A stretch of 64,000 bases of DNA from NCBI GenBank assembly GCA_023819375.1, contig JAMWDI010000003.1:62001-126000 (forward strand), written 5' to 3'. Shown one piece after another: positions 1 through 44,275 of the stretch. Below the pieces are notes generated by a model that was given only the letters and a program-made list of their open reading frames with translations, ran no database searches and had not been told where the DNA came from. The position numbers were made by a program, and so were the translations under genes. Origin of the DNA: Candidatus Omnitrophota bacterium. GTDB lineage: Bacteria; Ratteibacteria; UBA8468; B48-G9; JAFGKM01. How positions within the stretch are numbered: position 1 is the first letter of the stretch; every line of letters starts with the position of its first letter.

Positions 1-2
1 TT

Positions 3-1022
3 TTTAAAGAAAGAAAAGAATTGTTAAATCATATTTTACGAAAGATAGTAATTTTTATGGGGGGGACTGCTGGGAATATCAGGATTTATAATTCAAAAAC
101 AAAAAGTTTAGTGCTTATAGGGAGTTATGGAACAAGTAAAAGGTATAAAGGGGATAAAAAAAGTTTAAAAATTGGAGAAAGTATTTCAGGAGTTGTTTTT
201 CAAAAAAATAAACTTGTTGTTGTTAAGGACTTAAGAAAAAGTAAGAGATATTTAAAATTGTCGCTTGCTTTAGAGAGTAAAATGATTTCTCTTATATCAG
301 CACCTTTAACAATATTTAACAAAAAATTAGGCGTTTTTAGTTTGTATTATTCTTATCCTAAAAATTTTACACAGCTGGAAAAAGAAATTTTTAAATTGCT
401 TGCAAATTTTGTGTCTCTTATAATAAGCACCCAAAACATTTACTATGAACTTAGTGATGCTTATGTTGGAATAATAAAGATGATAATTAAAGCGCTTGAA
501 GAAAAAGATTTATATTTAAAAGGACATTCGGAAAAGGTTAAAAAGTATGCCCTTCTAATAGGGAAAAAAATTGGACTTGATGAATTTCAATTAGAACAAC
601 TCTCTGACCTTACTACATTACATGATACAGGGAAATTGCTTATTGATGAAAAAATTTTAAATAAACCAGGAACACTTGATAATAAGGAATGGGAAATAAT
701 AAAAAAACATCCTGAAACGGGAGCAAAAATAATTTCACAGATAAGAAGATTTAAAAATGGAATAAGCATAATAAAACATCATCATGAAAGAGTAAATGGA
801 AAAGGGTATCCAAATGGTATAAATGGTTCTAAAATACCTCTTCTGGCTAAAATTGTTTCAGTTGCAGATGCTATTGATGCTATGCTATCACCAAGACCTT
901 ATAGAAAACCCCTATCTATAGAAGAAGTTAAACAGGAATTAATAAAAAATAGTGGGACGCAATTCGATCCTCAAATTGTTAAAGTGGCTCTTGAACTTAT
1001 AAATGAAGGAAAGATAAAATAG
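3..1022 (+). CDS. GAF domain + HD-GYP domain protein (5' truncated by window edge)
   Basis: Reading frame is open to the window start; GAF-like N-terminus, then HD-GYP signatures (GHSEKVKKYA, LHDTGK, HHERVNGKGYPNG, ADAIDAMLSPRPYR). Confidence 0.85.
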   Translation, partial: FKERKELLNHILRKIVIFMGGTAGNIRIYNSKTKSLVLIGSYGTSKRYKGDKKSLKIGESISGVVFQKNKLVVVKDLRKSKRYLKLSLALESKMISLISAPLTIFNKKLGVFSLYYSYPKNFTQLEKEIFKLLANFVSLIISTQNIYYELSDAYVGIIKMIIKALEEKDLYLKGHSEKVKKYALLIGKKIGLDEFQLEQLSDLTTLHDTGKLLIDEKILNKPGTLDNKEWEIIKKHPETGAKIISQIRRFKNGISIIKHHHERVNGKGYPNGINGSKIPLLAKIVSVADAIDAMLSPRPYRKPLSIEEVKQELIKNSGTQFDPQIVKVALELINEGKIK

Positions 1023-1087
1023 TAATTAAATCTTCTGTTTATTTTCAGGTAAAATTTTAAATAAATTATTTGAGAAAAGGATATAAT

Positions 1088-4000
1088 ATGAAAGCAATAT
1101 TTAAAAATTTATGTCCCAATTGTGGTGGAGATATAAGTTCTGAGCGATTTGAAAAGGCCTTACCCTGTGAGAAATGTTTATTAAATGAAGGTAAACTGGG
1201 TGAAATTATTTCTTTAAAAGAAGAAATAAGAGCTTGGGAAGAACATTTTGAAAAGGGAATAGGATTTAAACCATGGGGATTACAGATAACTTGGGCAAAA
1301 AGAGTTTTAAGGGGTGTTTCTTTTGCTCTTCTTGCACCAACCGGTATTGGTAAGACTTCTTTTGGAATTTCTATGGCTGCATTTCTTGCAAAAAAAGGGA
1401 AAAAATCTTATATTGTTGCACCAACAAAATTACTTGTTGAACAGATTTTTGAGAGAACAAAAAATTTTGATATAAGTGAGGAAAAAATTTTGTTTTTTGG
1501 AGATGAAACAGGTAAAAGCAAAAGGGAAAAGTTAGAAAAACTTAAAAATGGAAATTTTAATATACTTATTACAACTTCAATGTTTCTTTATAAAAATTAT
1601 CAATTTATTCCCAAAAATTTTGATTTTATTTTTGTTGATGATGTTGATTCTTTTCTTAAAACGGCAAAGAATGTTGATAAATGTCTTATATTATTGGGTT
1701 TTGATGAAGATGATATTAAAAATGCCTTTGAATTAATAAAAATTAAAGGGGAAAAAGAAAAAAGTGATGAGGACTGGCAAAAAATAGAAATTATTTCAAA
1801 TAAATTGAAAGAAAAAAAAGAAAAAGTTAAAGGAGTTTTTGTTGTATCATCAGCAACTTCAAATCCAAAATCTAATCGTGTTAAATTGTTTAGAGAATTA
1901 CTTGGTTTTGAAGTAGGTGTTCCTACTTTTTATCTAAGAAATGTTGTTGATGTTTACACAGAAGAAAATTTGTTGATTGAATATATAAAAAAATTAGGGA
2001 AAGGAGGGCTTTTATTTTTATCATCTGAAAAAGGAAGGGAAAGTATAAGAGAAATTAGAGAATTGCTTTTAAAAGAAAATATTAATGTAGTTTCCTATGA
2101 AGAAATAGATGATGAAAAAATAAGAGAGTTTAGAGAAGGTAGAATAGATCTTTTTGTTGGAATTTCTTCATTTAGAAATCCTCTTGCGAGAGGTCTTGAT
2201 TTGCCTGATGCAGTTAGATATGCGATTTTTTACGGAGTTCCAAAGATACAGATTTCGTTAAAATTTGAGCAAAATCTCTCCCATCTTTTCTGGGCTCTGT
2301 CCTCTATAAGAGCACAAATAGTTAAAAAGTATCCAGAGTATGATGCAAAAATAACAAATTATCTTAATCAGTTAAAGAAGTATCAACATCTATCCGAAGA
2401 ATTTATTAATCAGAGAGAGAATTTAAAAAATAAGATAGATTTGTTAAGAAAAGAGATTGGGAAATTTTTTTCAGAAGACAAAATTCTTGATCTTTTAAAA
2501 AATTCTGAAGAGTTAACTTTGAAATATATAGATGGAGAATATGTTCTCTCAATTTCTGATGTTACAGGTTATCTTCAGGCAAGTGGAAGAACTTCGAGAA
2601 TGTTTGCTGGTGGGATAACAAAAGGTTTATCTTTAATTATAGTTGACGATAAATCTGTTTTTTTACATCTTCGAAAAAGGACAAAATGGCTTTTTGAAGA
2701 CATTGAATTTGTTAATATAAGAGAAGTCAATTTGAACTCTATTTTGGAAGAAATAGATAATGATAGAAAAAAACTTAAGGAATTTTTTGAAAGGAAAATA
2801 CCTGTAGCAACTAAAAGCCCTTTAAAAGTTGTTCTTGTTATAGTTGAATCTCCTAATAAGGCAAGAACAATTGCAAACTTTTTTGGGAAACCAATAAGAA
2901 GGAGAGTAGGAGAACATGAAGTTTATGAGATTTGTATAGAAGATAGGTATTTAATGATTACTTCTTCTTTTGGTCATATTCTTGATTTAACTACTAAAGA
3001 AGGTTTTCATGGGGTTTTTGTTAATGGAGAAGTTATCCCTGTTTATGAACCGATAGAGGGTAAAGAGGATATAATAGAAGTGCTAAGGAAGAGTGCCTTT
3101 GAAGTTGAACAGGTACTTGTTGCAACAGATCCTGATACAGAAGGAGAAAAAATAGGGTGGGATATAAAAGAAATTCTTAAACCTTATATAGATGACATTA
3201 GAAGGATGGAATTTCACGAAGTTACAAAGAAGGCGATTGTTAATTCTATAAAAAATCCAAGGGATTTTAATCTTGATCTGGTAAAAGCACAAATTTTAAG
3301 AAGAATTGCGGATAGATGGATAGGTTTTGAATTTTCACATCTACTTTTTAAAGTTTTTTCAAATTTAAATCTTTCTGCTGGAAGAGTTCAAACACCTGTT
3401 CTTGGTTGGATAATTGAAAGAGAAAAGGAATATTTTAAAAAGATATATAAAGTTTTTGTAACTGTAAGAAAAAACGGTAAGAGAATAAGATTAAGTTTTG
3501 AATTTGAAAAACCATATGAGGCATATAAATTTATAAAAGAGGCTGAAGAAATTGAAATAAAAAAGATAGGTGAGAAAGAGGAAATAATTCATCCTTTACC
3601 GCCATACAGAACAGATACAATGTTAAAAGATGCAAGTGATTTTTATAAATTTTCTTTACCCTTTACAATGGAACTTGCTCAAAATTTATTTGAACTTGGA
3701 TATATAACATACCATAGAACAGATTCTTTGAGAGTTTCAGATACTGGCATTTCTTTGGCATATGAATTTATTAAAGAAGAATTTGGGTCTGAATACTTTC
3801 AGAAAAGAATATGGGGTGAAGGTGGAGCACATGAGTGTATAAGACCAACCCGAATTATTGAACCAGAAGAGTTGTATTCTATGCTTTACAGTGGACAAAT
3901 AGAGGGGTTAAGAAAAGAACATTTATTACTTTACACTATGATATTTAATAGGTTTATTGGAAGTCAGATGAGGTCTGTTAAAGTAAAGATTGAAGATTAT

Positions 4001-42327: not shown

Positions 42328-43542
42328 TTAAGTTGTATAGTTTTGTATAAGGTCTTCCTTTTCCTTATAACCAATACAGAGTTCATTTAAAGGGCAATTT
42401 TCACATTTGGGATTCTCATGATTGTAACAGTAATTTGTTCCAATATTAACTAATCCATCATCAAAATTTGCAATTGAATATTGATTTCCTTTTTCATTTA
42501 AAACATAAACCAGTAAATTAGGAATCCTTTGTATTTCTATTTTTCTACTTTTCACCTTGAAATATTCTTTCATTATTTTGTTGTATTTTTCTTTAAGTTC
42601 ATCTGGCATATCATCTTCGTTAATTTTTTTTCCTCTAATATTCGTAATTCTCAAATAATTTTTCCCTTTTTTTCCTATTTCTTTCTGGATTACTTTGTAC
42701 TTTTTAAAATCCTCCTCTTTTACCAGACATAAAAAAAATCCAGTCCTCCATAAAACTCTCCCAACATTACTGTCAAAAGGAATTTCATAGGAGATATCGC
42801 TCCAAGCATTATCTTTTTTAGAACTTAATTTAAAAATACTCACATAAAACTTAGTAAATAGATGGCATGCTTTATCTCCTATTGCACTTCCAAGTCCATA
42901 TCTTTCATCATTTTTAATTTGATTGGCCATAAATTCAGCAGATTTAAAAGATTCTATCCAATCTACAAATGGTTGATATGAGGTTTTACTTTGTTTTTCC
43001 AAATCTTTTTCTAATAAATAAAAACAACATAGAGGAACTCCCCATCTATGAACAGCAAAATCAAGAACCTGTTTTGTAGAAACAATTCCTCTTTGTGATT
43101 GTGTAAAAAAAAGATTATATTTAGATGGAGAAGAATTTACTTCTTTTGCCCATATTTGGCTTCTTATATTTTTTATTTCTTGATGTTTTTCTACAATTTC
43201 GTCTATTGATATTCCCATTTCTCTGAAAAAATCAATTGGACTGTGTAAAATTTGTATTTCATTTCTATAAAGTTGATTTACTACGTTTTTCAAAAGTTCT
43301 CTTATGCCAACTATATCGGGTCCTTGATCTAAAACTACATTTAAAAGTAAATATCTTGTAAAAATTTCTCTTCTTTTAAATTTTCCATCAAATTCATCAA
43401 GTTCATCTACCTTTAATATTTTATCAGAAGTAAAATAATTCTTAAAAATATCAACTTCATAAACTGGTGGTAAATTTGGATTTTCAGAACCAATTTCACA
43501 AACTTTTTTTGTAAATTCCAACAAAAACTTAAAATTATCCAT
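42328..43542 (-). CDS. EndoIII/HhH-GPD-like protein with C-terminal Fe-S motif, partner of adjacent DNA methyltransferase
   Basis: YGLGSAIGDKACHLFTKF (HhH-like with Lys), PFDSNVGRVLWRTGF (compare VDTHVxRVxxRxG with catalytic Asp), CYNHENPKCENCPLNELC (Cx7Cx2Cx5C). Confidence 0.6.
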   Translation of the reverse strand: MDNFKFLLEFTKKVCEIGSENPNLPPVYEVDIFKNYFTSDKILKVDELDEFDGKFKRREIFTRYLLLNVVLDQGPDIVGIRELLKNVVNQLYRNEIQILHSPIDFFREMGISIDEIVEKHQEIKNIRSQIWAKEVNSSPSKYNLFFTQSQRGIVSTKQVLDFAVHRWGVPLCCFYLLEKDLEKQSKTSYQPFVDWIESFKSAEFMANQIKNDERYGLGSAIGDKACHLFTKFYVSIFKLSSKKDNAWSDISYEIPFDSNVGRVLWRTGFFLCLVKEEDFKKYKVIQKEIGKKGKNYLRITNIRGKKINEDDMPDELKEKYNKIMKEYFKVKSRKIEIQRIPNLLVYVLNEKGNQYSIANFDDGLVNIGTNYCYNHENPKCENCPLNELCIGYKEKEDLIQNYTT

Positions 43543-44275
43543 TTTGTTTTGTAAATAGATCAGCATCTATTTCTTCAAGTCTTTTCTTTGCAAACTTACA
43601 ATATTCTGGGACTATTTCAAAACCAATAAAATGTCTATTTAGTAATTTTGCAGCAACTGCAACTGTCCCTGAACCTAAAAATGGGTCAAGAATAATATCT
43701 TTTTCATCACTGCTAAAAAGAATCAATTTTTTCACAAGTTCTATAGGTAACTTTGTAGGTGTTTTCAGTTTTCCAATCCAGTACTCCCTATTTACAACTA
43801 TTACATCTTCTGGATAATGTTCAATTTTATTAAATTTATATTTTTTAGCATGCTTTACTACAAATAAAATGTGATAATGACTTGTGACAAATTTTCTTTC
43901 GGTATAAACTCCAAACTGATATTTCCAGATTAAATGATTTATTTGAATAAAACCAACTTCATCAATAGCATTCAAAACATCTTTTAAGTTTGTCCATCCA
44001 GAAAAAACATACATACTCCCAGTTATTTTTAAAATTCTATAACATTCTTTCATCCAGTTATAAGAGAATTCATAATATTTTTCTTTCGGTATTTCATTAT
44101 AACCCTCAATTATTCTTTCATTTTTTCTGTTATAGTTATTTCTTTTTTCTTTAAAATCTATAGCAAAAGGTGGGTCTGTAATAACTAAATCAATGCTTTC
44201 ATTAGGAATTTCTTTCAGTAATTTTAATGCATCTCCACAATATACTTCATCAATTAAAAACTTTCCTATTTTCAT
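43535..44275 (-). CDS. Site-specific DNA methyltransferase (N6-adenine/N4-cytosine class)
   Basis: YCGDALKLLKEIPNESIDLVITDPPFAIDF (motif IV) and DIILDPFLGSGTVAVAAKLLNRHFIGFEI (motif I). Confidence 0.93.
   Translation of the reverse strand: MKIGKFLIDEVYCGDALKLLKEIPNESIDLVITDPPFAIDFKEKRNNYNRKNERIIEGYNEIPKEKYYEFSYNWMKECYRILKITGSMYVFSGWTNLKDVLNAIDEVGFIQINHLIWKYQFGVYTERKFVTSHYHILFVVKHAKKYKFNKIEHYPEDVIVVNREYWIGKLKTPTKLPIELVKKLILFSSDEKDIILDPFLGSGTVAVAAKLLNRHFIGFEIVPEYCKFAKKRLEEIDADLFTKQNG

Follow-up and report, generated by a model that had tools for sequence, protein, structure and literature searches.

The stretch of DNA analysed here, 64,000 nucleotides (nt) of contig JAMWDI010000003.1 from a Candidatus Omnitrophota bacterium and hereafter called the window, carries on its minus strand two adjoining genes, one for a DNA methyltransferase (MTase) of the beta class and one for a protein of 404 amino acids (aa) with an iron-sulfur (Fe-S) cysteine motif, referred to below as the Fe-S protein. 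Comparison with related loci suggests that the pair forms a restriction-modification (R-M) system in which the Fe-S protein takes the place of the restriction (R) enzyme. The locus has the following features.

43535..44275, minus strand: DNA MTase, beta class (N6_N4_Mtase), 246 aa, the M gene (Pfam N6_N4_Mtase, E=2.8e-42)
44165..44176, minus strand: MTase motif IV, DPPF, typical of N6-adenine MTases (from the sequence)
43664..43687, minus strand: MTase motif I, DPFLGSGT (from the sequence)
43535..43542, minus strand: 8-nt overlap in which the MTase gene ends and the Fe-S protein gene begins (from the sequence)
42328..43542, minus strand: 404-aa Fe-S protein in the R position, a proposed HhH-GPD-like restriction factor (NCBIfam mutY at the C-terminus, MTase linkage)
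43297..43350, minus strand: N-terminal Q-x2-D motif LLLNVVLDQGPDIVGIRE, residues 65-82 (best match to the EndoIII N motif)
42868..42897, minus strand: proposed hairpin and Lys224, GLGSAIGDKA, residues 216-225 (Lys conservation; assignment unconfirmed by profile)
42736..42789, minus strand: catalytic-Asp motif YEIPFDSNVGRVLWRTGF, residues 252-269, with Asp257 at 42772-42774 (motif scan, ROS1 alignment, conservation)
42376..42429, minus strand: Fe-S cysteines C372, C380, C383 and C389 (Cx7Cx2Cx5C), residues 372-389 (hhalign)

Judged by its sequence, the 246-aa protein is unambiguously an MTase; it matches the PADLOC model MTase_II (E=3.4e-57), and its nearest solved structure is CcrM (E=8.7e-26). 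The initial annotation, made from the DNA letters of the window, described an MTase gene with DPPF and DPFLGSGT motifs ending inside the start of a ~404-aa open reading frame (ORF), and these coordinates hold, with the overlap listed above. The stretches that it quoted from this frame, GLGSAIGDKACHLF and PFDSNVGRVLWRTGF, are both present in the 404-aa protein together with the Cx7Cx2Cx5C pattern. It also saw no nuclease gene beside the MTase, and indeed none adjoins it at this locus. An upstream ATG at 43566 is an alternative start that would extend the Fe-S protein to 412 aa.

EndoIII- and MutY-like features of the Fe-S protein

The C-terminus of the 404-aa protein matches the NCBIfam mutY model (E=3e-6), and a mutY match is found in 7 of 8 homologues. 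Alignment of the Fe-S region of eight homologues with a MutY-like profile by hhalign gives a probability of 95% (E 2e-8), which bears out the EndoIII-like Fe-S cluster of the initial annotation. All four cysteines are kept in each of the 15 homologues that reach the C-terminal region, forming a four-cysteine motif of the EndoIII/MutY kind with a first spacing of Cx7, not Cx6. The 404-aa protein has no Pfam match above cut-off and no PADLOC match, and family-profile scans found no match to known nuclease families.

Outside the Fe-S part, the best-conserved EndoIII-like feature is the Asp motif. A pooled profile of the EndoIII/MutY Asp motif finds its best placement at residues 252-269, ~15 bits over the runner-up, so that the Asp motif first proposed from the window stands; Asp257 is invariant in 17/17 homologues. 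A search of the PDB with the family profile returned mostly MutY structures plus ROS1, all with weak E-values, and a second ROS1 segment pairs the family's PFDSNAGRVLFRTGFL with FPVDTNVGRIAVRLGWV, the catalytic-Asp motif. No PabI entry appeared among the matches up to E=1 in this search, and no direct comparison with PabI was made. The N-terminal Q-x2-D motif is an addition to the motifs of the initial annotation; residues 65-82 lead the next placement of the EndoIII N motif by only ~1 bit with the pooled profile, and the DQGPD of this region is invariant across the family. In an ungapped scan the N motif (65-82), the Asp motif (252-269) and the Fe-S motif (365-391) follow one another in the EndoIII order, each at its best position. 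Furthermore, when 393 genomes were searched with a profile built from four homologues, the weak extra matches were mostly EndoIII/MutY genes.

The Fe-S protein thus shares with EndoIII, MutY and ROS1 its cysteine pattern, its catalytic-Asp motif and its Q-x2-D motif, in the same order. It differs from them in being about twice the length of EndoIII, in its Cx7 spacing, in a hairpin motif that profiles do not recognise and in the DNA MTase gene that always adjoins it. Set against EndoIII and its numbering, the chain is longer at three places: by ~70 aa ahead of the Lys, by ~15 aa from the Lys to the Asp and by ~65 aa from the Asp to the Fe-S cluster. These extra stretches are rich in invariant charged residues. 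An N-terminal target-recognition extension of ~200 aa had been suggested for this protein. What is found instead is ~50 aa of N-terminal sequence and enlargements inside the EndoIII-like chain, and it is these extra stretches, not a separate N-terminal domain, that likely host site recognition. The homology of the Fe-S part and the Asp motif to EndoIII/MutY appears well supported, an HhH-GPD fold is likely but unproven, and the role of Lys224 as a catalytic Lys is uncertain.

Linkage, exchange and decay at the R position

Homologues of the Fe-S protein were collected from the genus and order of the window (G003 and G023), from another phylum (G190), from the Dehalococcoidia genome OY282355 (L010) and from twelve more genomes sampled from the phylum of OY282355. 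Linkage was counted over the 17 loci, the window included, that have a homologue together with its 5' flank. At all 17 a DNA MTase lies directly upstream on the same strand, so the survey of homologues suggested by the initial annotation shows an MTase at every testable locus. These MTases belong to two subfamilies that are 20-26% identical, with DPPF at 5 loci and SPPY at 12. The family assignment is confirmed for both types; the members that were scanned match Pfam N6_N4_Mtase. DPPF- and SPPY-partnered proteins are intermingled on the Fe-S protein tree, whose well-supported branches force at least two switches of MTase type. Keeping an MTase neighbour while the MTase itself is exchanged is the behaviour expected of an R gene.

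In five genomes of the phylum that lack the Fe-S gene, MTases 59-65% identical to that of the window are followed by a gene for a ~220-aa protein (L047, L048, L050, L051 and L052); in G886 (L115) it comes after an SPPY MTase. This protein belongs to no Pfam family and carries an invariant FDG-x3-IPWDFK, which we take to be reminiscent of PD-(D/E)xK; three of five members match a PADLOC model of Type II restriction endonucleases (REases; best E 1.8e-4). DPPF and SPPY MTases are therefore each found with either R-slot protein. The loci of the ~220-aa protein, read as Type II R-M systems of the PD-(D/E)xK kind, have the same MTase subfamilies and gene order as the Fe-S system, whereas their R protein shows no sequence relationship to the Fe-S protein. 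Since each MTase type has relatives that are partnered elsewhere by one and the same REase-like protein, the Fe-S protein can be said to occupy the R slot; this role is well supported.

Other partners occur at related loci. A relative of the ~220-aa protein (48% identity; L089:3977-4642, in an archaeal virus record) adjoins a C5-cytosine MTase gene. A ~350-aa domain with the pattern DLDG...DHDIYR...GHH is fused to the SPPY MTase in L127, L132 and L135 and is a separate ORF after the SPPY MTase in L119; it has no significant Pfam or PADLOC match and is possibly a further R-slot partner. In L138 an EcoRV homologue (851-1489, minus strand; Pfam Endonuc-EcoRV, E=2e-77) comes directly after an SPPY MTase gene, with a Dam-like MTase gene beyond it.

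Evidence for decay of the Fe-S gene comes from several genomes. In G002 the MTase is intact and 83% identical, whereas the Fe-S gene is shortened by two in-frame deletions and its cysteine motif is damaged. What is left of it (L004:1447-2109) lacks residues ~20-111 and ~294-363 yet still reads as an uninterrupted 220-aa frame, and may be either a gene in decay or a small derivative. In G011 the Fe-S gene is present as a frameshifted fragment, and G982 (L109:434-1496) retains only the last ~60 residues of the protein, behind a PLD-type gene that is DrmC-like in PADLOC.

The cassette is also mobile and sporadic. In G000 and G002 it is flanked by a cyclophilin-like gene and an alcohol dehydrogenase gene; in the congener G003 these two genes are separated by ~40 nt and the cassette is absent from this place. 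The copy of the Fe-S gene that G003 does have is at another place, split across two contig ends, and on one of these ends Cas6b and Cas8b of a CRISPR I-B system (L039:1505-2290 and 2-778, minus strand) lie a few kb from it. The presence of the Fe-S protein is patchy across phyla. No homologue of it was found in viral, phage and plasmid collections, and the closest plasmid and phage relatives of the MTase are <35% identical, so that its specificity is not obtainable from them.

Depletion of AGCT

The observed-to-expected ratios of the 16 tetranucleotide palindromes were compared between genomes with and without the Fe-S protein. For AGCT the median is 0.23 in 16 genomes with the protein and 0.69 in 47 without it, the control samples being small and uneven (one-sided p=3e-5; ~5e-4 when corrected for 16 words). 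AGCT alone of these palindromes shows consistent depletion where the Fe-S protein is present. Its ratio ranges from 0.06 to 0.53 in 12 larger samples that span 28-67% G+C, and in three genomes the depletion covers all NAGCTN contexts. Among palindromic hexamers and general pentamers no word is consistently avoided.

AGCT is thus possibly the recognition sequence of the system. Each strand of AGCT holds one A and one C, so an N6-adenine or an N4-cytosine MTase could protect the same site, and this is proposed as the reason why one R protein may work with both MTase types.

Proposed restriction by base excision and its alternatives

With rather better than even confidence, the locus is read as a compact, mobile, Type II-like R-M system in which the Fe-S protein is the restriction factor, most likely a base-excising one, and in which the target may be AGCT. 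The MTase would methylate its own site, and the Fe-S protein would attack that site when it is unmethylated. A base would be flipped out and excised by an EndoIII/MutY-like active site, using Asp257 and perhaps Lys224, and the resulting apurinic/apyrimidinic (AP) site or nick would harm incoming DNA. Attack on the unmethylated target is suggested indirectly by the exchange of the R-slot protein, the decay of the Fe-S gene with the MTase kept and the depletion of AGCT. With an Asp motif and an Fe-S domain in the protein, base excision is the chemistry that requires the fewest assumptions, and the argument for it comes solely from this homology; the base removed and the type of methylation made by each MTase are, like excision itself, what we infer.

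Restriction enzymes are phosphodiesterases, with the exception of the PabI superfamily (2023 review, PMC10273834). The R.PabI family, which has the HALFPIPE fold and includes R.PabI and R.HpyAXII, restricts by base excision with AP lyase activity, the mode that is proposed here too. For PabI, avoidance of the site in host genomes and decay, inactivation and replacement of the R gene are on record (PMC10273834), and site avoidance, R-gene decay and replacement have counterparts in the Fe-S system. On the other hand, PabI lacks an Fe-S cluster, has a fold of its own and targets GTAC, whereas the Fe-S protein has an EndoIII/MutY-like C-terminus with four cysteines and the candidate target is AGCT. 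The system may therefore be of the restriction-glycosylase kind, with an HhH-GPD-like R protein, and is placed outside the PabI family.

Several observations count against this interpretation. In the ungapped scan of the homologues for EndoIII motifs the hairpin and Lys motif was not recovered, so that the HhH-plus-Lys element of the initial annotation is unconfirmed, although Lys224 is invariant in 17/17 homologues. Without its Fe-S part, the Fe-S protein aligned by hhalign to EndoIII/MutY scores overall no better than column-shuffled decoys, and homology of the core is for this reason claimed only through motif placement. AlphaFold models from two sequences (the window protein and that of L010, in both orders) are mostly helical and have predicted local distance difference test (pLDDT) scores of 38 and 34, which leaves the fold unconfirmed. 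As for AGCT, the word was chosen post hoc, and the lineages compared are related and not phylogenetically independent. In addition, G961 and G001 are depleted of AGCT (0.06 over L179-L186 and 0.20 over L199-L218, respectively) and have no detectable Fe-S gene, perhaps reflecting past carriage or another AGCT-specific system, while two genomes that carry the ~220-aa R candidate are not depleted.

One alternative keeps the R-M system and makes its R protein a phosphodiesterase, with a cryptic nuclease site in the large insertions and with Fe-S and HhH-like parts that bind DNA or are structural. The low pLDDT scores, the many invariant charged residues in the extra stretches and the resemblance of the ~220-aa R-slot protein to ordinary PD-(D/E)xK enzymes all suit this explanation. 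We nevertheless regard it as unlikely, as the Fe-S protein matched no known nuclease family and its EndoIII-like Asp motif is invariant and better conserved than anything else EndoIII-like outside the Fe-S part.

The initial annotation left open whether the protein is a restriction factor or a repair enzyme tied to the methylation. The second option, in which a dedicated enzyme clears damage at methylated sites, has a precedent in M.MthTI and Mig.MthI, where the gene for an HhH-type glycosylase adjoins a DNA MTase gene as here, and the Fe-S and Asp homology points to repair enzymes. In that pair, however, a C5-cytosine MTase is accompanied by a glycosylase for T/G repair; methylation-linked repair makes sense for 5-methylcytosine but not for the MTase classes found at these loci, since the linked MTases at all 17 are of the beta class, either DPPF or SPPY, and none is a C5-cytosine enzyme with a product that deaminates to T. 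Moreover, the slot of the Fe-S protein is exchangeable with a REase-like protein, its gene decays while the MTase persists, and AGCT depletion suits restriction. A separate EndoIII is encoded elsewhere in the host genome, and a housekeeping repair role for the Fe-S gene was set aside on this ground. Restriction is favoured over repair because MTase exchange, R-slot exchange, decay with the MTase kept, cassette insertion and site avoidance parallel R-M systems, and dedicated repair is accordingly considered improbable.

Finally, the Fe-S protein might be a defence glycosylase that acts on modified phage bases, with the MTase merely a neighbour or marker. Bacterial defence by such glycosylases is known: Brig1 and Brig3 turn DNA glycosylase activity on incoming DNA, with modified phage cytosines as substrate (PMC13160076), and one Fe-S homologue is close to CRISPR I-B genes, as described above. 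Brig1 and Brig3, however, belong to the Uracil-DNA-glycosylase superfamily, in contrast to the HhH-GPD-like Fe-S protein, and the strict M-then-R order, the gene overlap and the depletion of a site in the host better suit a methyl-protected target. The chance that this account is right seems very slight.

Restriction by the Fe-S protein, probably through base excision, remains the favoured reading. A broader claim, held more tentatively and at somewhat less than even confidence, is that the Fe-S proteins are another restriction-glycosylase family of independent origin, derived from HhH-GPD/Fe-S repair enzymes, which recognises AGCT, can be protected against interchangeably by an N6-methyladenine or an N4-methylcytosine MTase and occupies the slot that a conventional REase has in sister systems. 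Within the library searched, no paper combines 'HhH-GPD' with 'restriction-modification'. If the claim is true, base excision has evolved as a means of restriction more than once, and ordinary repair enzymes can become site-specific weapons; a sequence-specific, methylation-sensitive glycosylase would also be usable as a reagent. With two types of MTase and two of R protein being swapped, the loci also offer a natural experiment in the assembly of R-M systems.
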